Below are positions 35,146 through 63,207 of a stretch of DNA of 64,000 nt, piece after piece. The stretch is from Taxawa tesnikishii (nom. ined.). Its lineage: Eukaryota > Ascomycota > Dothideomycetes > Dothideales. Every line of letters starts with the position of its first letter. The stretch's first letter is position 1. The stretch spans positions 1,054,001-1,118,000 of the forward strand of contig JAPDRO010000010.1 in the NCBI GenBank assembly GCA_030247885.1, read 5' to 3'. The notes under the pieces are model-generated. The model was not told the origin of the DNA and made no database searches. It was given only the letters and a program-made list of their open reading frames with translations. A program made the position numbers and the translations under genes.

Positions 35146-35696
35146 CTTACGAGGAATATAGTCACCAACTCCAAGCGACATAGGCTTGACAGCTTACCGT
35201 GTGCAATCGAAACAAAAATCGGACAACAGCGCTCCCAACCTTGCACTGAACGCGATACCACTTTGTCTCCGGTCATATGACAAGCACAGCACGATGAATA
35301 TATATCATATACGGCTACAACAGCAATTGAGATCAACCTTAGCCCCCACAAACACGTAAAAAACGATTTGGGTATCCCTTATGCCAACGCGCTGAACTCC
35401 GGCGCCGGTAACGCTAGGTAGCTACACATCTCTAGTAACATACAAAAATCTGCACAACGAGACCTTCGCGTTAAGCATCGAAGCTCCCACAGTAGTGGCA
35501 CCTGGCGTTACACACAACACGCCCTGCATCCTTCCCTGGCCTGTCCGCTTCTCCGCAATCTGGTGCTACTTGAACGAGTTCCCCGGCTTGTTCTGGAGAG
35601 TGGTCAAGTCGATTGCACGCGCCCTTCGCTCTCAGGTGTGGAGCCACGTGCCGCAGGACTGCAGGCTGTAGGCTCGACGGTACTGAAAGGGTCAGC
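35146..35696. other. No supported gene
   Basis: Downstream flank of the coiled-coil gene. Short frames only. Confidence 0.4.
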
Positions 35697-42077: not shown

Positions 42078-42767
42078 TCACTCTGTCACATCCGCACCTC
42101 TTAGGAGAAGCTCTTCATCGAACACAGTGTCACTTGCCAACTTAGAGTTAAGCTCATCACAAGCGAATGCCTTTGCGTGAGTGTGCTTCCTCCTCTTTCT
42201 GAGCCTATCCATGCTCCTCTTGCGGCACTGCTTGTGGTCTTCATCCTTCATCCTGACGTAGTCCTGAGGATAGCATCTTGTCGTGTGGAGCTGGAAGAAC
42301 TTGCTGTAACCCCCTTCCAGAACATACATCTCAGGATAAGTAAGCGTTGGATATTGAGAGTAGTTCACAGTCCTGTCATGTTGTCGCACATGTTTGGCGA
42401 CTTGGGGAGCGCGATAGATCGAAAACTCGCAATAAAAGACAAGCAGCGTGCGTGGTAACGGGGCTTGTTCGAAAAGCTTCTCCACGAGGAGCTCCTTGCC
42501 ATCGTAGCGAATAGCGCCTTCAATGTGCCCGCCTAGATGCTCGTATTCGAACCGACAGTCAACGATTATGACATTTTCGAAGTCGGTCTGGTGCCTTCCA
42601 TCGAGCACGTCAAGCAAGGTCTCCGGTAGTATCCGTGGAAGACTATCTGACCGGTACTCGTTTTCGAGATGTCGAAGTTTGTTACTGTAATAGTCACTGT
42701 TGACTTCAGCCGCGCGTATGCCGATAGGTTGACCATGGTTCTGCACCTCGTCGGCGTTCGGAAGCAT
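42078..42767 (-). CDS. Cdc25-like (M-phase inducer) phosphatase domain, divergent paralogue
   Basis: Cdc25 removes inhibitory phosphates from cyclin-dependent kinase. From ATG 42767 the 229-residue frame covers the rhodanese-type catalytic domain: LPRILPETLLDVLDG, VIIVDCRFEYEHLGGHIEGA, the active loop CEFSIYRAP, YPTLTYPEMYVLEGGYSKFF and CYPQDYVRM. Catalytic Cys and Arg of the CX5R loop are present, but the His normally before Cys is Tyr (TAT), a single C-to-T change from a His codon. The long N-terminal regulatory region of true Cdc25 is absent in this frame. A separate frame just upstream (42770-43186) may be its remnant. Likely a partial or neofunctionalised copy rather than the essential gene. 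Confidence 0.75.
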   Translation of the reverse strand: MLPNADEVQNHGQPIGIRAAEVNSDYYSNKLRHLENEYRSDSLPRILPETLLDVLDGRHQTDFENVIIVDCRFEYEHLGGHIEGAIRYDGKELLVEKLFEQAPLPRTLLVFYCEFSIYRAPQVAKHVRQHDRTVNYSQYPTLTYPEMYVLEGGYSKFFQLHTTRCYPQDYVRMKDEDHKQCRKRSMDRLRKRRKHTHAKAFACDELNSKLASDTVFDEELLLRGADVTE

Positions 42768-42769
42768 AT

Positions 42770-43186
42770 CTAAGGACCTTCTGACTTGCTTCCGTGATCG
42801 TAATCGTGCGACGCCTGCTTTTTCAAATGGCTGACAGATGGTAAGCTGGCGTTGTACAGACCGTAGAGCAGCGGCCTTTTCGTAGGGGTATGGTCCAGCA
42901 TTCTGATCACCACCTCGTTCTCTCTTGTGGTAGTTGTGTCACTGTTGTCGGGTAGCAACCTGACAGATGAACATCGGAGCGCGACATGCTCATCGTCATG
43001 TTGATGTTGTTGCTCTTTTCGTTCTTGTTGTTTGTTAGAGGTCGAGCCAGACAGATATACTGTTCTCATGCTAGAGGCAAAGGAAGGCATGATAGTGGCA
43101 GAGTGTATCGGGAAGCGGCACTCTTCGGCTAAGCAGGAAACGGTCTGTGTTAGAACCGTGTAAAACATGCAGATGGGCTGAGCCAA
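42770..43186 (-). other. Open frame upstream of the Cdc25-like gene
   Basis: 139 codons on the minus strand ending four bases before the downstream ATG in another frame. It is Ser/Gln/His-rich (SGSTSNKQQERKEQQHQHD) and contains LLYGLYNASLPSVSH. It could be the decayed N-terminal region of the phosphatase gene or an independent short frame. Confidence 0.3.
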
Positions 43187-44559
43187 ATCTATACAGGTCG
43201 TGTTTGGTTATGCGTACCTGTGACTAGTATCCAGACCGATCAATACATCTGTGGCTGACCCTTGTTGAGCAAATGAGATGAATTGGTGAGCGGGCGCCGT
43301 CAATGTTGAGGATCATGAACAGTCGGAAGACAGTCTTCATGCGGGTAGAGACGGCTTTTGTACCTCAACCTAAAACAAAACCTGTTGTGAAAGAGTATTC
43401 TGTTTCTCTATCTGTTGTGTAATCAGTTGTGTGAGTATTTAGACTGAGTCTCTGTAGATAGCAGTGCTATCTATGTTTGCCTGAGTCCAGATTAGGGCCG
43501 TTCGATTTTCAATCTCAATATCGCATGCGTGCGAGCATGCCCCTGAGCTTAGCAGATCCTTCTTGGGTTCCCTGCTCTAGCTTGCATCCTGCGTGACATT
43601 GATAGGGCATTGATGAGACGTTAAAACCGCTCATTTGCACAGACCGAAACTGTCAAACGGCGGATATCCTACTCGTGTAGTTATTCAAAATCAGCGGGGC
43701 CTTTCCGCTTTCTATCCGTAGCTGGAACGGCAAAAGTTGGCGAGTATTCCAACAACAGTTCTCGGTAATCACGCAACAACCACAAAGGGCAAGAGTCCAA
43801 TATCGAGGCTTGCCGTCTCTATTCCTTTGCGCTTTCGTTCTGTATGAGTACTAGTGTGCATACAGGCTGTGCATTAGCAAAATATGGAAAAGTGTCAAAG
43901 TCGTGCATTTGTCGCGAAAATGGTCAATTTGCTTAGATTTCCTTGAATCTGGTAGCCGAAAGAGTTGACCAAAAGTCGCAAAGAATTGTGGTTTGCTGTA
44001 GCAGGTAAGCCTAGTACTAGACAACGAGGCAGGGAGCAGTAGTATTGCAGGTAAGGAGGTACGGTGGATCGTATAAGAGAAGGCAGTGATTGAACTTGCC
44101 GCACGAGCTGAGCACAAAGCTCCTATCTACGGTAAAGAAACGTAATAACATACTCAAGGGACTTCGTACAAAGGGCGAGTAGTGCGCTTCTCGCGGCATG
44201 AGCCACGTTCGCTCATGTCGCGGATGTCGCGAGCGTCGCGCATCCTCTATATGTGCGCTTGGCAACCAGTGAAGTTGCCAAGCCTGTCGCGCATACTGAC
44301 CCGGGGTTCGTAACACTCGTCCATCAAAGGATACATGGCGCTGAATCTGCTTAGATGATGCGATGTGCGACATGAAGCGCCGTGGTTTGCGCCCAAAACG
44401 CAGGGCTGCGGCAAGCTGTACCCAACTTTGTCCGGATGTTTGCCGTCGATGTGTGATAAAGTAGCGTCAATGCCTCTTCCAGTGCAAGGTCATGTGACGA
44501 GCAGGCACTGCTCGTCCCTCAGGCATCGCTAGCTTTGCTATCTCTACACAAGCTTTAAA
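43187..44559. other. No supported gene
   Basis: Nothing recognisable was found on either strand. The stretch around 43360-43480 is A/T-leaning. Confidence 0.4.
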
Positions 44560-45330
44560 ACAGATGCCGGAATCCCTTAATCCAGATCTTGTCACTGCGT
44601 GCAGCTTCGTGGGGGCTGAACAAGACACAGCAGCTGCGGCGCACCCTGTTGTGGACACCCTTATCGTGCGCCACTTCGTACCGGCGCACAAAGGCACCAA
44701 AACCTGGATTCCGTCTCTCACGCTGTTACGATACGCTCCGCCTAACCAAAAAAACACGCGCTAAGACCGCTGAGAAGCGGAATCTGGGAATTGACCTGCA
44801 TAAGGGGACAGATCCGTGAAGGGAGTACTGGCACTACCGTCCATCTGCCGGAGGTCATAGTCAATCAATTGGTTGATTCTTGAAGCTATGGACCCCGCAG
44901 GGGTCAGGGTTGTTACTATCTTATCCACTGAACCGCCGGACCAATGACAGGACTCGCGTACCCATGAGCCAGAGGTCATAGTCGTGCTTACAGATCCGGG
45001 ACTGGATGATTCAACATCGGATTCGGACTGGGGAAAAAGTTTCCGACCTCCCTTCCATTCCCCGTTTCCTGGATCGGTCACAATGCCATCCTTACTAATG
45101 GAAAGTCAGTTAAAGTGCAGTCTTACACTATGGTGAAGGAGAGAAACTGCAAATACACAGATTGTGTTTGTGCTTCATTCAAGAGCTTATCCTCGGACCT
45201 CTTCCACTTGTATACGTCTTAACAGCGCCCGCATCTCATAGCGTGCTTGGTAATCCCCTTCCCGAGGCTTGTAAGAAAGCTGTGAAGACATATGACACAC
45301 CAAATAAGTCATTTCTCGGTGAGTAAGGGC
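44560..45330 (+). pseudogene. Unnamed dispersed gene family, copy B (best kept)
   Basis: Consecutive plus-strand blocks read NPDLVTACSFVGAEQDTAAA and VDTLIVRHFVPAHKGTKTW, then IPSLTLLRYAP, LHKGTD, EYWHYRPSA, FPGSVTMPSLL, and finally GEGEKLQIHRLCLCFIQ with LGNPLPEACKKAVKTYDTP to a stop near 45328. Frames change several times. The same blocks in the same order occur at 47930-47376 on the minus strand, and parts at 20226-20770 and 63740-63407. No domain was recognised. Confidence 0.5.
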
Positions 45331-45587
45331 GGGTCTACTCCTCTGTTATCTTCGCCTCGATCTGGCGCAATAATTAGTCGAGGTCGCATGAGGTTTACGA
45401 AGACATTTTGACATGATAACGAAGCGTTGGCTATCGGTCAATGTGCTGATGCGTTGTTCCTTTGTCATACAGATCGCTTGGCAGTCTGCGGAGGGTTTCC
45501 GCACCCAGCTGTGTGGATTGTTTACGCGACAACGTGTACTTGTACGCAGCAAGCAAGTTCTTTGCTTGCGGTCACCACCACCACCGA

Positions 45588-47120
45588 ATGGCCTTGCGCG
45601 TTGTAGACTGGCTATCTACGCTCGATATTTCTCTACTCTCGAGCCCTGACTGCACTCGCACTGCCCCATCAAGGGAGCGCAAGAGTAGCATCGCACCCTT
45701 GGCTGGCTTCGGCAGCCCACACGCGCCTGCGAACACCAGTTGCCGTAAGAGAAAGAGGCACATCATGTCTGGCGGTCGGTCCCAAACCCTTCAACCCCTA
45801 GCGTTATAGATAATGTTGGATAAGAAAGTTCTAATACCAACCAGACGAACCCGCGCTCAATGTAGAGGTAGACCACACACCACGCCCTCGTCGGCGGCAC
45901 TCGCAAGCCTTCGACATACTAGCTATCCCCCTTCGCTCATCATCGAAGCGTACACGCTCTTCTGCCACAAGCTCGCAAGCAGCCAGCAGCTACCATTCGA
46001 GAAAGTCATCCAGTCCAACAAAGGTCGGCGCGCTGAGGGGTTGGAGAAGCCCGTCATACTGCGGACTATACTATCAGAAGAAGGATGGGAGGAAGGTCTT
46101 CCGGAAGAGCTAGTGCGGCTGGTGAGGCAAACACGGTACTTCTCATACGGAATAGGTGCTGTGCCAAAGGAGCTAGAGGTACATTTGCAGTATATCCGGC
46201 ATGGTACGGGAAAGATACTGAATATTGGCAGTATGCCATCAAGCCAGCTTTGGGGCTCGCGTGGAATGAGAGCATGATCAGCGGAACCTATCTTTACAAG
46301 AAGCCGCCGAGTGTCATGGACCCTGACAGGGTGATCCGTCACACTCGACGATATGCCGAGTCGAGAGAAAGCGAGGCGGCCTAGAATTCAGTCGTTCATC
46401 ATTCTCTCGGCTTGATGGCGCTTAGATGTGGTGCGTACGACTCGCTACTCGATTTGAACAACATATGCGTTGTTGCTGTCGTTCCGATCTGCATCTCATG
46501 GAGTTGTCCTAGCCCAGCGTTCTCCGCACATGACTGACGCTAACTCGACAAACAGTACTTCCGCCCATATCTCCAGCCAAGAACTCCTACCTCTGGACGC
46601 AGGCGGCCATACTATAAGTGGTAAGATGGTCGACTTTGCGATAACCCTCGAACCGACAAAAGAGATGAAGATCGCTTTCCGGCACACAAAGCCTATCGTG
46701 CCCGGCCGACCGCAGTCGTTCAACCAGACTGACCACTTGCCCATCGCCAACCGTCCCATCGCGGTCAGCATTGAGACGAAGCAGTCCGGCGAGGGACAGC
46801 AAGCCGCGTACGGGCAGCTGAGCACCTGGCTGTTGGCGCAGTATCAGCGACTCCGATATTTGACCGAAGAAGCGGGCAACAAAGATGCAGAGATGCTGTT
46901 GTCGCCTGTCATGGTAGTGCAAGGGCCTACGTGGAGTCTCCTGGCTGCGAAGCAGAACGAGGAAGGAGAGATAATACTGTGGGACTGCGGGACGTTTGGA
47001 GAGAGCAAGAGCAGACTGGGTGTCTGTCAGATCTTGGCTACGCTGTTGCTGCTTATGAGGTGGAGTCATGAGGAATACAGGGCTTGGTTTGAGAAGCATG
47101 TGCTGTGCAATCCAAAATGA
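45588..47120 (+). pseudogene. PD-(D/E)XK nuclease-like fungal protein (PDDEXK_12 type), copy 1
   Basis: The start MALRVVDWLSTLD followed by a CRKRKRH basic patch fits the N-terminus of this fungal family. An in-frame TAG at 45807-45809 interrupts it. The middle reads EEGWEEGLPEELVRLV and, after a frame change near 46190, YGKDTEYWQYAIKPAL with AWNES. After a further break or intron (about 46385-46555) the nuclease-like core follows: KMVDFAITL (acidic residue), AVSIETKQ (the E-x-K), YGQLSTWLLAQYQRL, VVQGPTWSLLAA, ILWDCGTF and LMRWSHEEYRAWF, to a stop at 47120. The catalytic D...E-x-K triad is present in the last block. Function in fungi is unknown. Confidence 0.7.
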
Positions 47121-47159
47121 GGAGGTTGCGCTACCCGTGCATGGAGACCGGCCTACTCA

Positions 47160-47350
47160 GGCATTCTTCTCCGGGATGCGACGCATTCCACAAGAATCTA
47201 CCGGCTAACGCTAAGTTGCATGTTTGGAACGCGTCGCGTTCGAACACGTTCCAGTCCGTGCAGCTTTTCCTGGAGAGGCCAATGTTGCGTTTATAGAACG
47301 CCTCGCGCTTTCGTGGCCTTGCTCTTCCCTTTGATGCCTTCCCTGGTCTC
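47160..47350 (+). repeat. Dispersed repeat with GGAACGCGTCG palindromes, copy 2
   Basis: Same orientation and word order as 16398-16640, with one palindrome fewer. It starts about 40 bases after the stop of the nuclease-like gene. Confidence 0.75.
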
Positions 47351-47375
47351 ATGTGCTTGTCTAATCTCAGATCGC

Positions 47376-47930
47376 CTAATGCTGGTCGGTCGGGCTATCG
47401 ACGTGTTTCTTGACCGCTACGAGTAGACTGTACACCATACGGACCACTCCGTTCTGTACTGTCAAGGACGACGATATTACTGATCCAGGAAACGGGAAGT
47501 GGAAAGGACACCGGAGAAACTTGTCTCCTAGTCCGACGCTATCATCCCGTCCTGGATCCGATGGTACGACTACGAGCTCCGGAGCGATGGCAGATGGACG
47601 GTAGCCGTAGATCTCGCCCCGCCCATCTGTCTTCATGTGCAGACCGTTTCCCGAAACCCGCCTTTTGGCGGTCATAACATTAGCAAACGAGATGTATCGT
47701 AATGGCGCGAGAGACGGGATCTGGGTTTCGGTTTTCGGTGTGTTGTCTCCCAAGCGCCGGCCAAAAATAGCCCATGATGAAGGTGTCTACGGGAAGGGCC
47801 GCTACAGCTGCTGTATGCTCCGCAATAGTCTTGCTCCCTTGGGCTTGCATCCCCGCACGAAGCTGCACGTAATGATGAAGTTCTACCCACGCATCCGGTT
47901 GCTTGTCCATGACGCTCCAGCGTAGCATCC
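47376..47930 (-). pseudogene. Unnamed dispersed gene family, copy C (decayed)
   Basis: The minus strand reads QPDAWVELHHYVQL, TAAVAALPVDTFIMGYFWPA, IPSLAPLRYISFANV, GLHMKTDGRGEIYGYRPSA and KFLRCPFHFPFPGSVISSSL, matching copy B block for block. Frames change in between. Confidence 0.5.
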
Positions 47931-48079
47931 TCGAAACAACCTAGTTTTGCACCCACCATCATCTCCTGAACGACTACACTATCTATTCCGCCGCAGAACA
48001 CCGCCTTGTGGTCAGCTACCTAGAGCTTCAACTGTGAACGCCGCCTGTTGCACAGCCGTAGACTGGACTAGGCGTTGAC

Positions 48080-48270
48080 CGTTCTCTCCAGATCACGGTT
48101 AGCGGCCGCAAGCAAGTAGCTACGCGCGTAATGTATCCCGAAGCTGAAAGTTCGCACACTGCGAAACAAAGCTAGATGGTTCCTATAATACCAGAGCCAA
48201 CAATTGTAGATGTTGCTGTCTTACATGGATGTTTAGGATGATGCGCGAATCTTTACCACTCACAAGTCTG
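48080..48270 (+). repeat. Dispersed repeat, copy 2
   Basis: Matches 20840-21080 in the same orientation. Confidence 0.7.
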
Positions 48271-48824
48271 AACCGTGCTCACCGTATTCGTGTTAGGGAT
48301 CGTGGCCGGAGATGCAACGTTCCAACTACTGCTGAGTCAAGCGAATCAAGTCCCGTTGGACGTTTTGTACCGACTGTCTAGACAGTTCGAACATATTGAG
48401 TGACAGGAGACAGTGCTCTTTTAGTGCATCCGGTCTTTCGAAACTACGAACAACCACTGCATCAAGGGAGCCGGGTAGTAACATGTTCTCAAGAAGCTCT
48501 CTCTAAGAGACTCAGCGTAATGCACAAGAAGCCTGAACACGAAAGACCTCGATCGGACTAACGAGTTGCTTGGCGACAATAGTCAAAATACAATTGCTAT
48601 GAGGTAGAGCATGCTAATGTAGTGGATCTCCTTACGACCTCATAAACTCGATGTACGTTCTGCTTGTGGCGCGGAAGCGCTTCATGGCGTCCGCTCGGGC
48701 GTACGGGGATTCCTTGGCAGGCGCACCTTGGCGGTGCTCAGGCAACAGACCAAAATAAGCACAACCACAATGACCCCCACAACCTCTTCAATAGCGCTAC
48801 CACATTTGTCCTTCCATCGTTCTT
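48271..48824. other. No supported gene
   Basis: No conserved frame on either strand. Confidence 0.4.
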
Positions 48825-50290
48825 ATGCCAAACGACTGGAGGTTCGTTGAGTCGTGGCTTGACAGTGCTGTGCCCTTTCAGCAAGATGATTTCCCGTTAT
48901 CGCTATTAAAGAAACCTGCGGCGCTCCGCGTCGCACCGACTCTCGCTCCACCAACTCCTCCTCCATCCACATGGCCAGTCAAGCCCTCCGACGACATCTG
49001 TTCAGCGTCCCAGAGCCAGTCGCTAAAGCGCAAACGACGCATCTGGACACGAAACACAGCGCGTGGCGCAATGATGTCGCCGCGCAAACGTACTAGAGCC
49101 TAGGACGACCACACCTCTGTCACAACCGCGGCGAGCGTTCTCAGTAACATTCAGCTACCTCACACAGTCAGTTCTGGCTCCTCTTCTCCGACGAAAGTTC
49201 GCGCTGGAGGCCCTGTGAGGGAGCTGAGAGACATCTACCGTTGCCAGTCCGCCGCTCAAGTACACTATGACCCCAGATGCCAGTCCGCCGCGGAGCGTTA
49301 TAGATCTGATAAACGGGCTGCCGTTGCACGGGTTAAGAGTGATACCTGGGTCTTTGAAGGTATCGATTATATTGATGTTTTGGGTGCGACGCCAATGAGT
49401 CGTGTTAAAAGAAACCTTCAGAGCCGCCCTGCCTTTTGAGACTATCCCTGAATATGCCTTTGACACATCAATCAACACCGATCAGTTCGCCGATCAGGCG
49501 CTATGGAGCAAGGCCATAAGCACGTTGGAGAGAGCAAAGGTGTGCTTCGTGGACAACGAGCCCGAAGCTCCATGGTTGGCGATAGCAGCAAAGCTACTAG
49601 AGGACGTGTTCGCGCAACCGGAGTTAGACGGGATGTCATTTGTCAAGGATGTATGAGTTTTGGTCCATGTTCGGTGTGGGCCTCACAGCCATCGCGACTA
49701 ACGCATACCGGTGCTTACAGCCAATACAGCGACATCAACTCCAACAGCCTCCTTCCACATGTCTACAACACCGCCATCCCGACCAAGAAGGCAGACCTCG
49801 CCATCGCCGTCTCAGCCCACACGCCTACCACTGCTCCGGTGTACACCGCACTACGCACATCAGACCCCACAATGAGACTCAGCCAAATGTCAGAGACGAG
49901 CGTGAGCAGGCTAGCTCAGCCGGGCCGCATTGAGGTCGGTGAGCCAAGCAAGAGCTATTTGGAAGCCAGTCTGCAGCTCGGTGTCTGGTATTTCGTCGGG
50001 CTGGAGAAGCTGAAAGAGTTGAGGGTCCACTTCGGACAAGCTGATAAGCAGATACTAGCGCCGGGAAAGGATAAGGAAAGTGAAGTTGCAGAGCATACGA
50101 GGTCTCAAGAAGACCTTCCGCTCTTCAGATGGACTGTGATCGGCACGGACTGGAAGCTGCACGTCGCATTCGAGGACATGATAAACGGAGGTGCTGCGGT
50201 TGTACGACCTTTGGGTAGTGGGGGCTGGGTTCCGCGTTACCATTCTTCAAGCCCTTCAGGACGGCGACGATGTTGGCTAGGTAGGTGAAC
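48825..50290 (+). pseudogene. PD-(D/E)XK nuclease-like fungal protein (PDDEXK_12 type), copy 2
   Basis: It starts MPNDWRFVESWLDSAVP, with a basic SLKRKRR patch near residue 67. Further blocks in other frames are ALPFETIPEYAFD, APWLAIAAKLLEDVF, and the core KKADLAIAV, RIEVGEPSKSYLEASLQLGVW, LPLFRWTVIGTDWKLHV. In the E-x-K position the sequence reads EVGE, so the catalytic Lys seems lost. Stops and at least three frame changes separate the blocks. It is more decayed than the copy at 45588-47120 and belongs to a different branch of the same family. Confidence 0.65.
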
Positions 50291-50918
50291 GAGACGTATT
50301 AGGCGGAGTTTTGGAGTATCCTAAGAGCGTGAGCAGGATGCTCGAGTGCAAAGGATAGGTGCAAGGCATAGTCTTCAGCAGTCAATGTACCTTCGCTTAC
50401 ATATTAGCGATGCAGAGAGTGGCCAGTCTGGCTCTTCTCGATCTAGTCTTTGTTCATCGTCCTGTTCCCGTCGTGAATGGCCAAACTCATCTTTTCGCTT
50501 GCGTTTCCACAGCCCTTACTTGTCCCTTCTGCCTTTTTCTGTCCTTACAGTCCCCTTTGCACTACTTCCTTCCCTCTTCTCGTACTACGCTAGCTTAAAC
50601 GACCTGCAACATACGGTGAGTACCCAATATAGTGTCCGTCCTTCACCGGGAACGAACGCTCGATCTTGCCCAACATTTGTGTACGGCTATCCCGATTCAG
50701 ATCTCGCTCTGCGTTGGTTACCACAAAAACTCTATCTACGCAGACTGGCGGAGCGGTTAGGTGTCGATACTCTGTTGCATTACGAGCACCGTGCCGGCTC
50801 TTAATGGTAAATGACATGAATCGCGGCTACGTTTGCCTCGTCTAGCACAGTATGAGCAGTCAACGAACAGTAGGCGTCTAGAGGATGTCATCATTCTTAA
50901 GCCATCTGCATCCGTGTT
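50291..50918. other. No supported gene
   Basis: A plus-strand frame at 50346-50804 has no recognisable feature. Confidence 0.4.
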
Positions 50919-51223
50919 CTAGCACTCGGGAGAGCGCCCCAGTGCCACCTCTAGCTTGGAGCAAACCCAGCTCAGGCTAACAAAGATGGAGACAAACCGT
51001 TGGATACTTGTATAGGGGATGTTAAACGCGCCTGCAGCCTTGCGAGTTGACTTGAGTTCCTTCTTTTCAAGCGCAGAGATAGCGTTCTGTATACCAGCTT
51101 CAGTACAGGCGAGTTTATTAGGTGTTGATACATTCATGGTAGGTAGTAGTAATGATCAAAGATGGGAGGGTCGCATTTCGGTGGTTCGTTCCCCACCTGG
51201 CTCGCTTCCCCACGGTTTACGTT
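50919..51223 (-). mobile_element. Pogo element, 5' end fragment
   Basis: The minus strand has the end ACGTAAACC plus two 17 bp motifs (GTGGGGAAGCGAGCCAG and GTGGGGAACGAACCAC) next to a TA at 51224-51225. Then come the transposase start MNVSTPNKLACTEAGIQNAI and KAAGAFNIPYTS. It breaks off after about 70 codons. Confidence 0.8.
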
Positions 51224-51262
51224 AGTCGAAGCTGAAAGGGTTGCAACTCGGTCTTCCATTAC

Positions 51263-51297
51263 CCTACCTGTTCCACTACCCCGCGGTCCATGTTAAC
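51263..51297. repeat. Solo pogo-type end
   Basis: TACCCTACCTGTTCCACTAC followed by CCCGCGGTCCATGTTA is a second, diverged element end only 40 bases from the 51223 end. No partner was found. Confidence 0.6.
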
Positions 51298-51534
51298 ACT
51301 ACATTGTGGTTTTCTTGAGAACAGCGGCCAGGCCATAGTATGTCTAAGGGGTTCTCTCCTCTTGTCTTAAAGCGCTTGAGTCAACTAACTGGCTAAAGAA
51401 GAGGCGAAATCTCCCTACTATGGACGCTTACTCTCTAGATAATGTGCCGTCTTAAAACCAAGAGGTCGCCTAGGCGTCAGATGCGCTGGAACGACCGCGC
51501 GTCTCCTCTCTTGATGTGCCTCCCTTTCCACTCA

Positions 51535-53233
51535 TTACTCATCGCCATGCTCCCGATTGATCTCCGCGCTATATCGTGCAAAGTTGCTTCTCTCCCTCAA
51601 GCTCTTTCCATGCTTGAAGAACACGTACGGCGTGATACAAAACAAGCTCGCCACAGCCGCGATGATGGATCCAGCCACGTTGGATCCTAAGCCGGCAAAC
51701 ATCTGATGCGCGAAAAGTGGCATGCATCCGGAGATGATGCCGCGAAGAAACGCGAGAACAGCAAGACCTGATGACGCATATATTGTATATGAATCAGCGA
51801 GGTATCCGTTCAATGTGTAGGCGAACTCGTTGGCTGCGAAACCGATCAAGGCCAAGCCGAGCATGGAGACGATCCAGTGTGTATGTACGAACGGCGGAAT
51901 GGTCCAGGAGAATAACCAGAGGCCTATGGCCAGGGCGGGTGCTGCGATGGCAAAACCGATGATCTTGTCTTCTGGCTGGATATCCTCACCGTTTTGAGTA
52001 CGCCGATTCATGACTCTCAAGTCCCAGAGGCGTGGCATGATGCTGAATGGAATCCCGATTGCGATGGCCAGAAATGCGAGCGAACAGGTGGTGTCATGCC
52101 AGCCATACTGACTGTATACGACAGTCATTGACTCAGTGAAAAGATAGATCAGGCCCCAGGCTGTAGCATTCAGAAGCGATACCATGATGATGATCGGTTC
52201 CGTGCACCCAAGATGTAGGGGCCTCCATAGCACCACTCTCACAAAAGTGCGTGGGCTGTCGATTGTATCCGGATTGTCAGCAGGTTTTAGGTGTTGATAG
52301 CCAGCCTTTTCCAGTTCGGTGTGCTTCAGAGCGAGACGCTTGCTTGGACGACTTTCGCGTATACCCAATAACAGGACAAATACCCCGGTTGTGATTATCG
52401 CAGAGGTGTAATATATCCAACGCCTGAGTAAACCGTCAGCCGACCATAAAGCACATGTCACAAGTCAGTTATCTACCAGCCGACTGCTTCGCCGATGTAT
52501 GACCCATAGATTGGCCCGATAGTTAGTCCGAGTGTGGTTGAGCTATTCCACAAGAGAATCAACCATACGCGAGTCTTGCTAGCAAAGATATCTTCGATAC
52601 TGCCGGCGAGGACAACAGAAGGCACCGAGGAAGCGAAGCCAGAAAAGAGCCGTCCTACGAACACTCCAGCAACAGAGGGTACCACACCGACGATCAGTGA
52701 AGAAATGGCATACACCGCACATGAGCAAAGGTAGGGCTTCCTTCGGCCAAATGACTCCGAATAGGGCGGCATGAGAAGCCCGCCTAGTGCTTGTCCCAAT
52801 TGATACCTGTGACTTTCGTGAGACTCAAAGGCAGAGTCAGCTTGGCTTGCATACTTACATGAAAGTGAACGCTACTAAGGCGATGACGCTACTCAGACCG
52901 TACTCATTGTGGGCAAGGGCGGCAGCGGATGGCTAAAGACGTGGTGAGCTTCGAATCCTTCGAACGTGCAGCGTGTCAAAGTCCAACCCCAGTTGTGCTA
53001 ATCGCAGTCCTATGTACAATTAGTAGTCTACACAAAGCTAAGATAAACTCCTGGAAGTCACTCAACGTGTAGAATTCCAGGAACACGATGACTGCTACAT
53101 CGTAAGTCTTGCGAGCTGTAGACCAGTTTCGGGGATATTCTTCGTTTGTTTTGTCCCATTGCAAGTGACTTGATTCGGTCTTTTGCAGACCTCGACGTGC
53201 AATTTGTTGCTCGCAGTCACTTGATGAATCCAT
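51535..53233 (-). CDS. MFS transporter, DHA1-like (MFS-1)
   Basis: An H+ antiporter-type membrane carrier. Five exons fit without lesion: 53233-53067, 53009-52988, 52932-52859, 52806-52477 and 52423-51535, giving 493 residues. Introns are 52-57 bases; one exon is only 22 bases. The N-terminus has the family's cytosolic NWSTARKTYD, followed by about twelve hydrophobic segments. PYSESFGRRKPYL is the loop 2-3 signature, then VGRLFSGF, and the central loop has GIRESRPSKRL. Relatives export drugs, polyamines or fungal metabolites. It is divergent from the aldolase gene (about 735 bases between starts) and is a clear paralogue of the transporter at 61450-63207: introns flanking the SESFGR exon match in position and phase. 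An ATG at 53305 is an alternative start. Confidence 0.9.
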
Positions 53234-53968
53234 GGATGAGATCCGTGGTTCTTTAGACCGATGTGAGTGCAGACGCTGACTTGAGTTCTGGGATTTTCTG
53301 AACAAGACGAGAGAATCCGTCGCAAGAGCCGCAAGTGCTCACCCAATTAGGTCGAAACAGTTCGTTTGGTAAATATATGTCTTGCAAGACGGGAGGCGAT
53401 AGTGACATAACAACAGATTAGAGTGAGTGGGCCCGTGCAACTCTTCTACCCGAAACGTCTAACCGACTGCCCCGCGGTTCACATTAAGACATATCCACTC
53501 AGCTAGCAGGCTTGTGTACCCAGCGATCCACTGATCGACACTGGGTTTGGCGATCATTTACAAGTTTAACTTGCTAGTGCCGATGACGATCACTAGATCT
53601 CCTGTACTACCTACCTTCAAAACCCATCGGCACTCCCGTTTCTCACATTTAGTCGAGGATCTTCATTTATTTCTTGGCTTTGCTCCACAAATTAGCCAGC
53701 CACGTCGTCTATCCTGCAGACTCAATCTGTTGAGACAGCACAGCACTAACCTCCACGAACGGCAGAACGTGCACTGATTTTGTTGATGCTAGTGGGCTTG
53801 GGTGAACAGGTGAATCAGGTTGCTTACTGTCTATTTCCGACCGATGTCAGCAGACCGACCCTATTGCACCGATCAATCCCAGTCGCGCGTGAGCACTTCT
53901 TCGCCAGTCTCTATTCTGTTACCAAACTTGATGGTATCCCCGCTTTTCACATTCCAACTCACAGCATC
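53234..53968. promoter_or_regulatory. Shared promoter region of MFS-1 and the aldolase gene, with a pogo-end relic
   Basis: The divergent genes leave one intergenic region. At about 53440-53487 the bases CTGCCCCGCGGTTCACATTA resemble a pogo right end with its inner motif (CTACCCGAAACGTCTAAC). It is a degraded solo end, so an element or MITE once sat between the two genes. No specific binding site was recognised. Confidence 0.5.
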
Positions 53969-55222
53969 ATGGTGCGGCTTCCTATTGACGACTCCGAAGC
54001 TTCGTCGCGTAAGCAACCTCCGTTGAACACCCTGGAGAGTATTTTGGAGAGACACGCAGAATCAATCGCATGGAACTCTCCTGGACCAGCCCGCTACGAC
54101 TTCCGCAGTATGTCTCTCCATGATCTGATAGGCTGACCTCAAATTTGCGTTGAGTCACTCACCTGTACATCAGGCGACGTGATCACAACTCCTTCGATGA
54201 GTATGCTCGCTGCCATTATCAGTACCACTCTCAGGGACGACGTTTTCCACGAAGACACAACCACAACATCTTTCGAATCTGATATCTCCTTACTCTGCGG
54301 ACAAGAAGCTGGCGCATTCACGCCCACGGGGACAATGGCGAACCAACTCGGCCTTCGTACGCTCCTGACCCAGCCACCTCATGCAATTCTCACAGACGTT
54401 CACGCACACATCCTGGAAAACGAGGCCGGTGGCCCGGCTTTCATGAGCGGCGCAATGATGCAAGCCGTGACACCCTCGAACGGACAGTATTTGACATTGG
54501 AAGATATTCAGTCTCATGCAGTGTTGACGGACAATGTGCACAAATGCCCAACGCGAGTGATAGCGCTTGAAAATACGATCAGCGGCGTTGTCGTTCCGCT
54601 CGAAGAACTACGGCGCATCTGCCACTGGGCTCGAGAGAATGGCGTCAAAACGCATCTTGATGGGGCGAGACTCTTTGAGGCTGTGGCCACTGGAGCTGGC
54701 AGCTTACGCCAGTATAGCGAGCTTTTCGACACTGTCTCGTTGGACTTCAGCAAAGATTTGGGAGCACCGATAGGAGCAATGTTGTTGGGCAGCAAAGCGT
54801 TAGTTGCGCAGGCGAAGAGGATACGAAAGAGCATAGGTGGAGGTCTGCGACAGGCAGGTGTGTTGACGGCTGCATGTAGGACGGCAGTCAATGAGCAATT
54901 CGGTTCCGGAGAGTGGGGTTCAGAGACTGCCAAGTTGAGGTGGGTGCACAGGCAGGCGAAGAAGGTGGGCGAAGTATGGGAAAGGGGAGGTGGCAAGCTG
55001 ACAAAACCTGTTGTGACAAACCAAGTGTGGTTAAACCTGGAGAGCTTAGGCGTTTCACCGAATGAATGGAATGCAATCGGGGAGAAGTACGGGATCAAGC
55101 TGGACGGCCCAAGACTGGTGTTTCACCATCAAATTGGAGATGATGCAGTCAAGCTCTTGGGCCGAGCTTTTGAGGATGTGCTCAGCCGCTTGAATAACAA
55201 GAACAGGAGGATGAAGCTCTAG
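53969..55222 (+). CDS. Threonine-aldolase-like PLP enzyme
   Basis: The family cleaves L-threonine or L-allo-threonine to glycine and acetaldehyde; some fungal members act as amino-acid racemases in toxin clusters (HC-toxin TOXG). Exons 53969-54107 and 54174-55222, joined by a 66-base intron, give about 395 residues. The junction restores the family motif DFRSDVITTP. Other motifs are DDVFHEDTT, AGAFTPTGTMANQL, HAHILENEAGG, ENTISGVVVPLEEL, the Asp/Arg in THLDGARLFEA, the PLP Lys in SLDFSKDLGAPIG (relatives usually have SKGLGAP) and RKSIGGGLRQAGVLTAA. All catalytic positions look intact. It is convergent with the ODC-like gene across the transposon block and divergent from MFS-1. Confidence 0.93.
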
Positions 55223-55342
55223 TTCATCTAAATAGAGGTTTTAGATTACTCCGCGTCGAATATGGAGTGCATGACCTAGTGGCTACTACAGTCACCTCCG
55301 ATGATATCCCGGACACGCGCAACGCGCGTTCTCGTATTGATA

Positions 55343-58300
55343 ACGTAAACCGCGGGGTAGTAAACTAGGTAGGGTAGTAAACTACTAAAACACGACCCTC
55401 CGATCTTTCAACTTTGCTACTACCCGTCATAAATGCTTCTATAACTAGTAAACTAGTCTATACTAAAGCTAATATTTAAAATGTACTTAATACCTTAAAA
55501 GAAAAGTAATACCCTTTTATTTATAAGGCTACTAGTATATATAATATTTCTTATAGTACTCTACGTAATTATATAGTTATATAAACTATATATAATAGCG
55601 TGTAAATTATAATAAATTCTTTTAAATACGGAAGAGAAGATATTAGTTTAATAAATTATATATCTTACGTATATTAACTTCTTTACTTTACTTACTTTAA
55701 TAATATAAATAATTAAAGAAATTTAACGTAAATATATATAGTTATTAAAGACTTTATAACCTTTTCTTTAACTAATTAGTAAGAAGTTACTCGACTACTT
55801 TAAAACTTATTATCTTAAGATTATAAGTATTTAAACTTATTAAATTAAAAGTATATACTTTAATATTATAAGTTATAATACTATAAAGAAGTAATTTAAT
55901 ATAGTAATAAAACTATTTATATAATATAACTATCCTTTAAAGTACGTTTATAATATAAATAAGTTAAACTTTATTATTAAAGTAAGTTAATTATTAAGAA
56001 CTTTAATTAATATATAATATATTATATTATCGAGTAGTTTATTATTACTAAGTAGTCTACTCTTACTAATATCGCGACTATTATAAACTATTACTTTTAT
56101 ATTATAATATTATATAAAAATATACTTTAGTTTATAGTATTATTTAAAAGTATTTCTATTATTTAGATTTACTATTTTTATAGTATAAGTACGCGTATTA
56201 TAATTAGTCTTACTATAATATTTATAGTACTTTTACGTACGTACTTTCTTCGTAGACTATTTAGTACTCTTATTATTACTATTATTCTTATTAACTATTA
56301 AATTCTATATATTACTTACTATAAGACTTTCTTCTATTTAAATATACTTTCTTTTATAACTATATTACTTTATTAACGCCTTAATTAACTTCTAAAGACT
56401 TACGATTTCCCTTATTTATAACTCTAATTTATAACTTATAATAGTTATACCTTTAATAAGTAAATTTATAGCTTATAAAAGAAGTAAAATAAGTAAATTT
56501 TTATATAGTTATATACGCTTATAAACTAGCGTTATTTACGCCTTTATTTCCTTTAAATTAACTAGTATTTTAGACTCCTACGAGGTAACTTTTAATAGTA
56601 TAAGTATCGGCGTATAAAGTATTATATTAAGCTTTAATAATACTTACTCTAAGTTATAAGAAACTAATTTAGCGCCTTTAAAGTTTACTTAAATATTATC
56701 CTTTATAATTACCTTATCGAAAGTAATATAAAAGGCTAGTAAGAAAGCTTCTTTTTAACTTACGTAATAAAGTACTATAACTAGCTATTAATCTCTATAT
56801 TATATACTTACTTTAAGGGGTAAAATAACTTATATTAAGTAGTTATAATAAGTATAATAAGTATAAAAGTATATAAAGAATAATAATCTTTTATTCTTTA
56901 TAATAGTTATAAAAGTCGTAACTATTATAACTCTTATAGTTATTTATAATTAGTAAGTAATATATACTTACTTAACGCACCTTTATATATACGTTAAAGT
57001 ACTTTAATTACCTTAAAGTAAGTTTATTTATCGTCTAGTTATTAGCGCTAGTCTTAATTACTTAATTGCGAAGTAAGTCTATATATTAGCTTAATATAAG
57101 AACCTTACTACTAAAGATAATAAAGAGTAAGATAACTTACTTAATAGCGTAAATACTTTAGATAATTATAACTTACTTTTAGTTACTTAGTTATACCTTT
57201 TTAAAATTACTTTATTTCTTAGAGCTTATAAAGACTATTTAAGCGTTAATTATACTTATTATAAAGCCTATCTTATTAAAGTTATATATATTTTTATTTG
57301 AGATATTATACTTTTTCTTTGTCTTTTTAACTAACTTAAACTAAAGTATTATAACGCGTATATCTTTATTTAAGACTTACTAATAATTATATAAATAACT
57401 ACGTTAAAGCTTAACTTTCTTAGTATATATTTTAAACCTATTTACTTAGTACTTATTAATAGGCTCTTAACTACGCGTAGTAAGTAAATTATTTACTATC
57501 TTTTTATTATAGTCTTTATAGCGCTTATTTCTTATAAGTCTAACTTAAATATACGTACTACTATTATCTCTTCCTTTATCTTTTATAACTTCTTTAAGTT
57601 AGACTTATAGTTACGTTATATAAGCTTTTTATCGCGTCGTTATTTTAGAGTTATTTAAGGGACGTTAAATACTTTAAACGCGTATCTTTAACTATTAAAA
57701 GGAGTTACTTAAGTAGCTTAATAATAAGGTATAATATACCTTTATTATAAGTTAATTATACGTTACGTTATAAAGGTATTATTATAATAGTTTATAATAG
57801 TCGCGATATTAGTAAGGGCAAACTACTTAGTAATAATAAATTACTTAGTAATAAAATACGTTAGTTAATAATTTAATAGTTTACTTTTTTACTTAACTTA
57901 CTTTTTTATAGTTTACGTTAATTTTAAATATAACTTTACTTTCTTAAACTTATTTAAAGTCTAGTTATAATACTTTATAGTTTTAACTATAAGTTTATTT
58001 CTTTATACGTATTATATTTATATTTACTTTAATATTAAAGCTTAATATAGTCGCGCTTATTAAAAGAAGAGTTATATATTTATATAGTTATAAAGGGCTA
58101 AATTAATAAGTATATTTTAAGTTATATAATATTAAGTAGTAATAGTAATATAAACTATAAAGTAATTAACTAAGTAAAAAAGCTAACTATTAAATTACTA
58201 CTTCTTTTACTTTAGTTAATATAAACTATAAGATAATAAACTAAGTAAAGTAATAAAATACTTAAATATAACTCTTTTAACTTTAATTACTATTTATATA

Positions 58301-59190
58301 TTATAATAATATAATTAAAGTTTAAGTTACTACTATAACTTTTACTTCTTCTTTTTATTACTCTTAATTATCTTCTTAATTAGGCGCTTATATAACTATC
58401 TACGCGACTTTATAGTTAATAATTAAGGGTAATATAATAACTTTAGTAATACTTATATATTAGATTATTATTATTTACTTTCCTTAGCTTTTAACTTACT
58501 TTTAACTAAATACTTTATATATATTAATTAAAGCTCTTAATAACTAACTTACTTTAATTATAAAGTTAAACTTATTTATATTATAGACGCGCTTTAGAAG
58601 ATAATTATATTTTATAAAAGGTCTATTATTACGTTAAACTATTTCTTTATAACGTTATAACTTATTACGTTAAAGTACGCGCTATTAATTTAGTAAGTCT
58701 AAATACTTATAATCTTAAGATAATAAGTTTTAAAGCGATCGAGCTAGTTTAGGCTAATTATTCGAGGGAGTTATTGCGGGCTCTTTAAAAGCTAAACGTA
58801 GGCGCGTTAGACTTTCTTAGCTATTTATAGTACTAACGCTAGCAAAGTAGGGAATCTAGTACGCGTAAGACGTGTAATCTATCGAACTAACGTCTTGTCT
58901 TTTACGTTTAAAGGGACCTACTCTGTTTTATACGCTATAGCGCGCGAAGTTCGTCTAGCTATCCGATTCTATAGAGTAGTAAACGGGACCTTGAACGCGA
59001 GAGTAGCCTTGCGAATAGACGTATATTCCTTTCTTTTAAGGCGGAGATAGCGTCTTGTATATCGGCTTCCGTATACGCTTTTTTGCTAAGTGTAGAAGTA
59101 CTTATAGTGGGTAACAGTAACGGTATAACTTTACAGGTCGCGTTTTGGTGATCGACTACCCCGGGTGATCGACTTCCCTGTGGATTACAT
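55343..59190. mobile_element. A/T-converted pogo composite (3,848 bp) with two inward-pointing transposase heads
   Basis: The block is flanked by TA (55341-55342 and 59191-59192) and has pogo-type ends at both borders (ACGTAAACC plus two 17 bp motifs at left; a degraded match at right). From the left, bases 55343-56190 align with the 5' half of the 2064 transposase gene on the plus strand. From the right, 59190 back to about 58330 aligns with the same 5' half on the minus strand. C and G are almost all replaced by T and A, as RIP does in ascomycetes; only the outer 430 bases at the right are milder. The middle (about 56190-58330) could not be assigned by eye. It is completely non-coding now. 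Confidence 0.85.
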
Positions 59191-59216
59191 TATAGTACTG
59201 TCTATCGCAATGAGTG

Positions 59217-60493
59217 CTATCCTACTGACGTGCCAACATAGAGAGTTTCCTGTAGGCTTCCAAATCCGTTAAAGGATGTCCGGGAGCACATTGAATAAGC
59301 GCCCATGTCTTCGAAGAACAGCCAGTCACCGGGCTGAACTTCTGGTCCCAGGATATCACATCCGCTGCTGATACAGTCGACACTGTCACAGGTTGGTCCC
59401 CACAAAGAATACTCCTTAGGGCTATCGCTATTGACTTTTGTACACTGCTGTCCAGGAAAGAAGTCGGCTCCATGACATAGAATTTGCGGCCGTGTCCTTA
59501 ATCGACCAAACGCGGCTTCTCCGAAGTTGCCAAAGACACCGTCATTGAGGTAGAGCATCTTGCAAGCCCGCTGCGAGTCCTCTGCTGATGAGTGACTCCG
59601 CACGCCCTTTACGTTGCATGCAAGAGTATACGCGCCTTTAGCAAAGTATCGGCCAGGCTCAGCAATGTAACGTACGTCGAGATCGCGGAACCAGTATGCA
59701 AGCTGTTCTGATAGTGCTTTTGCGACGGCGTGGAAGGACTGCTCCTGGAAGCCGCCACCCAAATCCAGTATGGACATCTCATGTCCCAACTTTCGTGCAT
59801 AGTCGAATATTCGTCTTGCATCTTCGATCACTGCTCCATATGCAGCAGGATCAGATGCGCCGCTGCCGACGTGGAACGATACTCCACAGATTCTCAAGCC
59901 CAGATGGGTGGCCGTTTGCACGAGCACCATGCCTTCTTCAAGTGTGGCTCCAAACTTTTCACTCAACGAGGATAGCGCCGACGGATCTTGCGCCTTGAGC
60001 CTAAGAAACAGCTCGCCTTCCGGACAAGTGGCCTTTATCTTCTCAAGTTCTGAAGCATTGTCAAAGGTCATCTGACGGACTCCAATCTCTTGCGCATGCC
60101 TTAGACACGTCTTGCTCTTGACTGTGTGTGCAAGTATAACGCGTGAAGCTTTCACCCCCATTCCGCGTACCAGGTCCATTTCCTCTCTAGAAGCGCAATC
60201 GAAGCCGGTACCCAGCGCTGCCAGTTGCCTCAATAACATGAGGTCCGGATTGCACTTGACAGCTGTGCCATTCCTTCGTTAGCAGGCATAGCCCAGTGGA
60301 GTAGCGGACACGTCACATTGTACTTACCGTAATAGGGACGAATGTGAGGCAGCGCTTCAATCCATCTGTTGTATTGCCGCGTAACATAGTCGAGATCGCA
60401 GACAAAAAATGGTAGCTCATCATCTGCCTCCCTAACGACTGCACACGCTGCTGAAGTGCAGACTGGAGGGTCTGTGTGCGACGTTGCTGATCG
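59217..60493 (-). CDS. Ornithine-decarboxylase-like PLP enzyme (group IV fold)
   Basis: ODC makes putrescine from ornithine; relatives decarboxylate other diamino acids. Two exons fit: up to 60328, and 60262-59217, with a 65-base intron. They join PHIRPYYAVKCNPD, which holds the PLP Lys. Further motifs are GTGFDCASREE, SFHVGSGA, LDLGGGF, the phosphate-binding EPGRYF, the loop GPTCDSVDCI with the catalytic Cys-Asp, and the tail GAYSMCSRTSFNGF. In common ODCs the loop reads CDGLDRI, so SVDCI is unusual and may alter substrate. The open frame begins at 60493 without ATG before HTDPPVCTS; an upstream exon is probable and not resolved. The stop lies 27 bases from the transposon edge. It is divergent from MFS-2. 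Confidence 0.9.
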
Positions 60494-61449
60494 TCAAGAA
60501 GCATAGACGGCATAGTGTAGAGAAGACTATCTCATGTACTCTTGTTCCGAGCAATAGGCTTGACAAGCAAGTAAAGCGGAAGCGTGTTCTGTTACCTTGG
60601 AGAACATAACAACTTACATAGAGCCTAATCATGAAACTCAACTACCCTCGATCGCAAAGTAGGGAACAATCCACTGACGTGTAAACACATCAAGAGGCGC
60701 TTTCAATTACGTAGCTAATATGTTGAGGCTCTAGCAATCATTCAGCCAACAGAGTAGAAGACTTGATTTGACTAGTTTCTCGCGACTTGCGAAGCTCCAC
60801 CCCTAGTTCATCGTTTGTTGCATTAGAGTTGCATTAGTTCCATTTTTAGTCCCTGATCAAAAAGTGGGTACAGATCCCCTTGATCCCCAGATCAGGTCAG
60901 ATATGCCGCAACTGCATCACCCGCATACTAGCAGTAACTGCACCTATGTAATTCCAGTTTAGCGCTGTAGTTGCTCCAACGTAATCGAGAGGGTAGTAGA
61001 CCAGACTGGAAAGTGGATCAGTTAACCCATATAGGCAGCTAGAAGCCCAACGAGTCGTTGGGCTAGCCCTAGAAAAAGGTCACACTAAACTATATTTAGG
61101 TAGATGATCCACTTTCCCGTCTGATCCACTACCCCGTTGAGTACGTTATCTTTTTCCTTTGTTTTCCTGCGAATTACTCAGATCGAATCTGGGCAGAGTC
61201 AGCCTTAAAAATAAAGATTGGAGCTCCACAAAACAGCGAAGACATACCAATTACGCAATGCATCGCTTGCTAAGAAGGCAAGCGGTTGCCCGTCGACTTA
61301 CCCATCCCAAATCCGCTAGCCAACTATTCTCAGTCACCTGCACTGTAATCGTCTTTGACCTACTTATTGTTTCTAGATAACAAGACTCAGGTAGCTCGCG
61401 GCTTGCTTGGTGCATCCAGATCTAGACCATCCTATATTACCTACTTACT
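60494..61449. promoter_or_regulatory. Shared promoter region of the ODC-like gene and MFS-2
   Basis: About 950 bases between divergent genes, holding MITE 4 and possibly the unresolved first exon of the ODC-like gene. A GTAAGT lies on the minus strand near 60618. No known regulator site could be named. Confidence 0.45.
60979..61146. mobile_element. Pogo-derived MITE 4, most diverged
   Basis: 168 bp. TA lies at 61147-61148; the left side now reads CA. The ends are ACGTAATCG or ACGTACTCA plus two 17 bp-spaced motifs (AGGGTAGTAGACCAGAC and TGGAAAGTGGATCAG). Left and right ends pair imperfectly, so it is older than MITEs 1-3. Confidence 0.85.
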
Positions 61450-63207
61450 ATGGCCCTGACGTTGGACAAAAACGACGATGACACCAGTGTTCAGGACCAG
61501 CTCAGGAACCATGGGTTGGCACTCAGCGAGAAGGGCACTGTAGCATGGTTGCTTCCACACAAAGAATATCCGCGATACTGGTCGAGTCGACCGAAGACTT
61601 ATAACGCATGTTACATTCTGTTTGCCGAAGCTTTTGGGTAGGTTATCAATCTTTGCGGCAATACAACACTGCGTGAACAACATCGGCACAAAATGTATCA
61701 GAGGTATATTAGCTAACAAAGGATCAGGTCGGCCATGGCTACCGCTGGGAGTGCTGCAGCCGAGCAATACATCACAGAGACCGGGACCAACGAAACACTT
61801 GCGTACTTTGCGTTCACGGCCATGTAAGTGGCTATTGACAGCGCAACACGGTATCAAACTAAGATCGGGCCATTATCACAGGAATTTGCTCGGACAAGCC
61901 GCGAACGCAATCGTCTTTCCTCCACTGAGCGAGTCATTTGGCCGCAAACAACAGTTCGTCTGGGGAGGTCTTGGTTTTGCCGTCTCATTGGGTCTTACTG
62001 TAGTACCGACCTTTACAATGGTGTTCGTGGGCAGGTTCTTGACAGGTTTCACCGGCGGCATTCCCGCTTCTATAGCACCTGGTGCTTTTGAGGACATCTA
62101 TTCCTCGGAAGCACAAGTGTGGGCACTCTTCGCGTGGGCAACTTTGTCGAATGTCGGTCTTGTGTTAGGTCCGATCATCTCAAGCTACATTGTAGCAACG
62201 CTCGGTTGGTCAGTCCGAAGTCACTACTGTAGGTTGTTACCGCATCTCACTGACATTTAAGCTGGGTTAGGCGCTGGGTGTTTTACATCGCCACCACGAT
62301 CGGCTTCGCTGGCTTTGGTGGTTCCCTCTTCATGAAAGAGAGTCGACCAAACTTGCTTTTGAAACGTAAGATCGACACCATCCACAACACTATCGGTGTT
62401 GAATCTGTGCCATTCCATAACCCGGACCATTTCCCGTCATGGAAGGAATACTTCAAAGAGGCGCTCCTGCGGCCGGCGAAGTTACTCCTAACCGAACCTA
62501 TTGTGATGATGTGCTCGGCTCTCCACGGCATAGCTTTCGGCCTCATCTACGGTCTGACAGAGGCGCTTTCGGTCGTATATTCACAGCTGGGCTTCTCAGA
62601 GACGGCAACCTCGCTTGCGTTCATTCCGGTCTTGGTCGGGGTGCTCATTTCCGTAGTGTTTCGTCTTTACGACCATTCTTACATCAAGAAAGCAAAAGCG
62701 CAGCATCGAGAGATCCACCCGGAAACAAAGATACGAACGTTTGCAGTCTCCGCGCCTCTGCTAGGAGCAGGTCTGTGGCTCTTTGGTTGGACCATTCCGC
62801 CTTTGGTCAGCGGCGTACCCTGGATAGTCTCTATGCTTGGCCTTGTCCTGGTTGGGACAGCTGCTAACGATTTCGACACAGTCCTGGCTGGATACCTCAC
62901 CGACAGCTACATGTCGTACGCAGCATCCGGCTTTGCGGCGCTCGCATTCACGCGCTCCATAGTTTCTGCCGGATTCTCGCTCTTCTCTAGACCCATGTTT
63001 TCGAACCTGGGTTCCAACGTTGCGGTTTCGATCTTAGCTGCTATCGCGACAGTCTTCTGCTTGTCTCCTGTGCTACTGCTCGGGTATGGCCCGCAACTGC
63101 GTGCAAAGAGTCCGTTTGCGCGGTACTCTTTAGACATTTCTCAGGCTAACACGCTGAGCAAGGACAGCATCACCGGACAGTCTGAGACGGAAACCGCTAT
63201 GGCATAG
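61450..63207 (+). CDS. MFS transporter, DHA1-like (MFS-2)
   Basis: Four exons fit without lesion: 61450-61637, 61728-61823, 61882-62208 and 62271-63207, giving 515 residues. The N-terminus has PRYWSSRPKTYNA, the equivalent of NWS..RKTYD in MFS-1. PPLSESFGRKQQFVW is the loop signature, then VGRFLTGFTGGIP, and RWVFYIATTIGFAG opens the next helix, with KESRPNLLLKRK in the central loop. About twelve hydrophobic segments are visible. The C-terminus ends QSETETAMA. It is a paralogue of MFS-1: the AT-G and TG-G split codons before and after the SESFGR exon match. Together with the divergent ODC-like gene this suggests export of an amine or amino-acid-derived product; substrate is unproven. Confidence 0.92.

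Follow-up and report, generated by a model that had tools for sequence, protein, structure and literature searches.

Is a run of four genes in which two transporter-enzyme pairs mirror each other a single metabolic cluster, or have two separate pairs come to lie side by side? The question is raised by positions 51,535 to 63,207 of the window analyzed here, a stretch of 64,000 nucleotides (G000:C2:1054001-1118000) from Taxawa tesnikishii, a species of the Dothideales for which PMC11195213 gives desert biological soil crust as the source. The source assembly comprises 29.4 Mb in 34 contigs, of which contig C2 has 1,163,921 bases. Eight copies of the repeat TTAGGG were found in its terminal 1000 bases, which places the four genes approximately 47-58 kb from the telomere. 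The genes lie in the order MFS-1 (-), TA (+), ODC-like (-) and MFS-2 (+), where MFS-1 and MFS-2 are major facilitator transporters, TA is a pyridoxal phosphate (PLP) enzyme of the threonine aldolase family and the third gene resembles ornithine decarboxylase (ODC); two divergent pairs thus meet tail to tail. An earlier note, made from the sequence of this DNA, had named these gene families, strands, order and mirrored layout, and all were borne out by Pfam matches and spliced models. Absent from it was a 20-kb duplication which ends between the two pairs. With modest confidence we favor two separate transporter-enzyme pairs adjoining in a transposon-rich subtelomere, MFS-1/TA being the older unit; that all four genes form one metabolic cluster is a less probable alternative.

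Duplication boundary and transposon block

A segmental duplication, with MFS-1 and TA as its rightmost genes, occupies positions 35310..55340 of the window, and its second copy lies inverted on the same contig at C2:619.3-641.2 kb. In BLASTN comparisons, window 36430-55360 matched C2:638258-619310 in inverted orientation with 99.3% identity over 18951 columns, and window 35310-36431 matched C2:641229-640108 with 97.95% identity over 1122 columns; a transposon fills the gap inside the second copy. Approximately 488 kb separate the two TA copies, and the second copy of MFS-1, from C2:621444, has three base differences and one residue difference. No second copy of the ODC-like gene or of MFS-2 was found in the T. 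tesnikishii genome. The second copy is flanked on either side by transposon termini, at which homology stops (the comparison past its left transposon covered approximately 5 kb, to C2:648000), while in the window it stops at the left terminus of a transposon-derived block between TA and the ODC-like gene. That the duplication boundary between the pairs coincides with the edge of a transposon, and that the first pair alone was duplicated, argues for two separate pairs. On its left side the window copy begins at 35310, which is not a transposon end, a degraded element being located approximately 375 bases further left; this weakly suggests that of the two copies the one in the window is the older.

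The block itself (55341..59192) is AT-rich, with a GC content of 20-30%, and has Fot/pogo-like terminal repeats at both ends, both of which match elements te1, te2 and te3. It is heavily altered by repeat-induced point mutation (RIP): the index TpA/ApT was 1.78 and (CpA+TpG)/(ApC+GpT) was 0.07, as compared to 0.64 and 1.25 in the MFS-1/TA part and 0.89 and 1.16 in the ODC/MFS-2 part. We attribute the mirrored look of the locus to two divergent pairs meeting tail to tail across this RIP-mutated transposon, and not to the duplication of a transporter. Read in this way, the locus illustrates that unrelated gene pairs joined at a transposon may take on the look of one designed cluster.

The 110 substitutions between the copies in 36430-55340 are unevenly spread, amounting per kb to 10.5 in 36.4-41.0 kb, 2.3 in 41.0-44.0 kb, 31 in 44.0-45.0 kb, 0.8 in 45.0-55.0 kb and 47 in 55.0-55.34 kb. 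None of 2000 random placements gave a substitution-free run as long as the longest one observed, 3460 bases. To judge from this pattern, gene conversion of the part bearing MFS-1 and TA is the likely explanation of the uneven divergence. RIP of the duplication was rejected: 85 of the 110 substitutions are transitions, only 19 of these 85 fall at CpA, and their direction is balanced (41 vs 44). RIP seems to have been inactive on the duplication in recent history, although the adjoining block is heavily mutated. Five codons are changed between the TA copies, four of them altering the residue and all lying in the last 68 codons. At two changed sites the window copy has the glycine of the family (33 of 34 and 30 of 34 relatives) and the second copy is changed; the window copy looks more constrained since it keeps these glycines.

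Transposons of approximately 1.85 kb of the Fot/pogo-like family (DDE_1, Tc5 HTH) were located at C2:617478-619329, 638258-640108 and 641229-643080, and at 2013-3215 of the window. The terminal repeats are approximately 44 bases long in the C2:617478 copy, and the target site is the dinucleotide TA. The copies are variously decayed, some retaining long open transposase frames.

Descent of the two transporters

MFS-1 (51535..53233, minus strand) encodes 493 amino acids in five exons (53233-53067, 53009-52988, 52932-52859, 52806-52477 and 52423-51535), and the spliced model is open from ATG to stop with four GT-AG introns of 52-57 bases. MFS-2 (61450..63207, plus strand) encodes 515 amino acids in four exons (61450-61637, 61728-61823, 61882-62208 and 62271-63207); its spliced model is likewise open, with three GT-AG introns of 90, 58 and 62 bases. 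The frames of the second-last exons matched Pfam MFS_1 with 58.2 bits for MFS-1 and 49.8 bits for MFS-2. No Pfam family was matched by the long last-exon frames of either gene taken alone, and a search of solved structures with the last-exon frame of MFS-2 gave one chance match only (E 1.5). Judged by domain and length, both genes carry the MFS_1 domain and have the length of a full 12-helix-size protein. The MFS_1 domain is common to them and to the fungal MFS drug/H+ antiporters; MFS multidrug transporters, C36.03c and fluconazole resistance protein 1 are among the named matches. We presume that both belong to the DHA1 group.

The earlier note had proposed that a transporter was duplicated here and that different enzymes were then recruited. 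The overall identity between MFS-1 and MFS-2 is 42%. Among the matches listed, the top identity of MFS-1 was 68%, to Aureobasidium P0242 and to P0300 and P0302, and that of MFS-2 was 71%, to P0303 (the gene's own record, P0243, set aside). A tree of 39 rows was built from 37 of the 120 listed matches together with MFS-1 and MFS-2 as the only own-genome members. MFS-1 fell in a clade (100/100) with Aureobasidium, P0275, P0300, P0302, Bathelium and Bogoriella proteins, and MFS-2 in another (100/97) with P0303, P0331 and Elasticomyces. Forcing the two together costs 276 log-likelihood units and is rejected by the approximately unbiased (AU) test (p-AU 4.48e-25); this pairing was tested after a preliminary tree had been seen, the hypothesis itself coming from the earlier note. 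The duplication that separates MFS-1 from MFS-2 is therefore old and did not take place at this locus. A local duplicate pair is rejected, the two not being mutual closest relatives, and the proposed recruitment after duplication is not supported.

The two PLP enzymes

TA (53969..55222, plus strand) encodes 395 amino acids in two exons (53969-54107 and 54174-55222) separated by one intron. The deposited protein P0121 is of equal length and 100% identical over 96% of the query. TA matched Pfam Beta_elim_lyase (PF01212) with 228.7 bits, and the closest solved structures are L-allo-threonine aldolases. Residues H125, R212, K240 and R360 were kept in all 34 aligned relatives (P0122-P0155); we take these to be the catalytic residues, so that TA has the domain together with the PLP lysine and the active-site His and Arg. 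The domain and the catalytic His, Arg, Lys and Arg are common to TA and the threonine aldolase/fungal alanine racemase family, although TA scores under the NCBIfam cut-offs of the family's two named models (206.6 vs 230 and 165.2 vs 312). Among the matches listed, relatives at 67-72% identity bear the deposited name threonine aldolase or alanine racemase when they come from Tothia, Ophiobolus, Ascochyta and Macroventuria, and are hypothetical or beta-eliminating proteins by name when they come from Aureobasidium. In a tree of 31 rows (30 of the 120 listed matches, including P0121, and the genome's own paralogue on C31) TA falls in a supported 14-row clade (99/99) with the 67-72% relatives, apart from the Bathelium and Bogoriella enzymes. 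A further broken threonine-aldolase-like copy with stops was observed at G000:C31:861301-861840, approximately 156 kb from the intact C31 paralogue.

The names of these relatives raise the question of whether TA could be an alanine racemase like SimB or ToxG, with MFS-1 exporting a D-amino-acid peptide or providing self-protection. The relatives from Tothia (72%) and Macroventuria (67%) are deposited as alanine racemase, and two from Colletotrichum at 57-58% as Alanine racemase TOXG; these names are transferred annotation. According to PMC3729494, ToxG would have been annotated as a threonine aldolase without experiments. The clusters of SimB (cyclosporine) and ToxG (HC-toxin), likened here by description, also join a PLP enzyme of this family with a transporter gene, as described in PMC6168864 and PMC3729494. 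They center on a peptide synthetase, unlike the window, whose scanned frames (28 of the 31 of at least 180 amino acids, the coverage of the domain scan throughout) showed no domain of such an enzyme. We consider the racemase function distinctly unlikely.

For the two-pair reading, the first pair consists of MFS-1 and TA, divergent, with 735 bases between the start codons. TA would cleave or transform a small beta-hydroxy amino acid, the founding activity of the family being the conversion of threonine or allo-threonine to glycine and acetaldehyde. MFS-1, as a predicted proton-antiport-type drug/amino-acid transporter, would export the substrate or product of TA, and the two together may relieve amino-acid overflow or toxicity. 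In the second pair, ODC-like/MFS-2, also divergent, a diamine would be made and then exported. Among yeast DHA1 transporters, Aqr1 exports threonine/homoserine and Tpo1-4 transport polyamines, according to PMC4021133. It is from this analogy that we infer substrates, direction of transport and cooperation of enzyme and transporter, TA/MFS-1 serving for threonine-like overflow and ODC-like/MFS-2 for production and export of a diamine. The locus supplies a testable MFS/threonine-aldolase pair.

The conserved core of the ODC-like gene (59214..60430, minus strand) consists of a main exon frame, 60278-59217, and an upstream exon from approximately 60430 (EADDELPFFV...). The main exon frame is open for 353 codons and has a typical intron upstream. 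The Pfam domain Orn_Arg_deC_N was matched with 207 bits, together with the C-terminal domain, and the best solved match of the main exon, the ODC 7odc, aligned over the full length, including the PLP- and substrate-binding motifs. Both ODC domains are therefore present with catalytic residues, and the PLP lysine, substrate aspartate and cysteine motifs are common to this gene and eukaryotic ODC, the roles of these residues being assumed from mouse ODC. When the core frame is followed upstream, a stop at 60496 is reached without any ATG, and the stretch resembling an ODC N-terminus (60431..60513, minus strand) is read in a different frame, whose ATG is at 60513. Within 900 bases 47 one-intron models, the only kind covered in the modelling of the 5' end, were found, and none of the 25 listed had an ODC-like N-terminus. 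Under such models a continuous coding sequence from a start codon is lacking on this assembly. The deposited protein P0001 (322 aa), named Ornithine decarboxylase, starts past the PLP lysine motif and also lacks a segment of the interior.

With no start in frame and a frame break, the ODC-like gene is not intact on this assembly. The earlier statement that all four genes are intact holds for MFS-1, TA and MFS-2 only, and the selection deduced from it does not follow for the ODC-like gene. The companion statement that nearly everything around has decayed was overstated, as nearby frames gave good Pfam matches (DUF7924, 378 bits; protein kinase, 112 bits; PDDEXK_12, 142 bits) and a 400-aa DDE_1 transposase frame is also open nearby.

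Of the 154 columns conserved in at least 97% of fungal ODCs (120 sequences, being 119 listed matches and the genome's own gene on C12), 117 are kept in the main exon and 37 are changed, among them Asp-His within FDHQHP; in these changes and in its broken N-terminus the gene differs from eukaryotic ODC. Apart from its own P0001, all relatives among the best 120 of 7906 matches are 46-50% identical. In a 34-row tree its branch is very long, at 5.96 changes per column where the median is 0.21, and the AU test does not reject its grouping with the C12 ODC (p-AU 0.184). That it is the housekeeping ODC was rejected, the canonical-looking ODC being on C12 (47% identical). By its sequence the gene is a strongly diverged paralogue rather than the canonical one, and it is probably damaged or newly lost at the N-terminus. 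If functional, it would point toward an amine new to desert black fungi. One might picture a lineage-private four-gene module in which this paralogue, its active site intact and its FDHQHP stretch altered, produces a non-standard diamine, which is then linked to the product of TA or leaves the cell together with it; the frame break would in that case stem from a faulty assembly or from a 5' exon that escaped notice. This we regard as very improbable. The canonical ODC on C12 (L038:5114-7958; C12:365114-367958) was observed to have an MFS frame approximately 660 bases downstream, in tandem.

Weighing of the two-pair reading

Beyond the duplication, co-location of MFS-1 and TA was sought in other fungi by comparing locus tags by eye in two lists of 120 matches. 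In Bathelium mastoideum the tags M1821_008186 (MFS) and M1821_008187 (TA) are consecutive, which implies adjacency on one contig; the MFS lies inside the MFS-1 clade and the enzyme is a more distant family member. Consecutive tags were thus seen in one of two comparable species. The pairing of transporter with PLP enzyme that had been claimed is in part upheld, since MFS-1 and TA were copied together and the Bathelium tags agree, and in part weakened, as the pair is only the end of a 20-kb segment and Bogoriella does not show it. In the T. tesnikishii genome itself, where 20 of 48 frames of at least 170 amino acids in five 10-kb loci were scanned, no PLP enzyme was found beside the MFS genes on C29 and C7 and no MFS gene beside the TA on C31. 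The two-pair reading also draws on the separate transporter clades, on the glycines kept by TA in the window, and on the frame break and shortened deposited protein of the ODC-like gene.

Several observations weigh against two separate pairs. In Bogoriella megaspora the MFS (M1820_007216) and TA (M1820_002953) tags are not consecutive. Both comparison genomes are metagenome-assembled; the Bathelium adjacency is one of tags alone, and the longest listed contigs in Bathelium differ (1738645 for the MFS, one of two, and 1498601 for TA). The main exon of the ODC-like gene is open over its 353 codons with catalytic motifs kept, because of which the break may be an assembly error and not decay. Finally, 118 bases separate the block from the TA stop and 21 bases from the ODC-like stop; without it the two enzymes would stand approximately 140 bases apart, tail to tail, as long-standing neighbors should, and would therefore have been close to each other before its arrival if nothing else was lost. 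This spacing is the best argument for a true four-gene cluster, in which ODC would provide a diamine, TA would provide or transform an amino acid and the transporters would export the product or products, the transposon having inserted in the middle later. Such a cluster would also agree with the divergent arrangement of both halves and the active-site motifs kept in both enzymes. By eye, the TAGTAT after the insertion point in the second copy resembles the TAGTAC after the block in the window, a weak likeness because the dinucleotide TA is the usual target. Against it, the listed relatives of the ODC-like gene reach only 46-50%, whereas those of TA and both transporters reach approximately 70%, and the duplication took only the MFS-1/TA half. 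Domains of a polyketide synthase (PKS), a nonribosomal peptide synthetase (NRPS) or another core biosynthetic enzyme were absent from the scanned frames. No word of at least 11 bases is common to the two divergent intergenic stretches (0 vs 0.4 expected from 100 single-base shuffles); with eight common words of 9 bases (5.1 expected) and three of 10 bases (1.3 expected), the counts give no clear signal. In the literature searched, nothing was found that joins threonine aldolase, ornithine decarboxylase and major facilitator in a fungal gene cluster, nor anything on the lolD ornithine decarboxylase of loline; a single paper was listed for an ODC paralogue together with a biosynthetic cluster. 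On balance the four-gene cluster appears unlikely.

The opposite possibility is that four unrelated genes have gathered by coincidence in a subtelomere that collects transporters and transposons, and that they do not cooperate at all. Within 20 kb downstream of the window there are two further MFS genes and a GMC oxidoreductase, an MFS gene likewise adjoins the canonical ODC on C12, and 48 stretches of the genome match MFS-2, so that an MFS neighbor is not rare. The consecutive MFS and TA tags in Bathelium speak against coincidence, which we consider conceivable but rather doubtful. Taking the two-pair reading as preferred, the locus is an interesting case, though probably an ordinary one, of gene pairs that adjoin at a subtelomeric transposon. 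The subtelomere past the window (C2:1118001-1138000; L028, L029), in which the GMC oxidoreductase and the two additional MFS genes lie, was found to contain more transposons as well.

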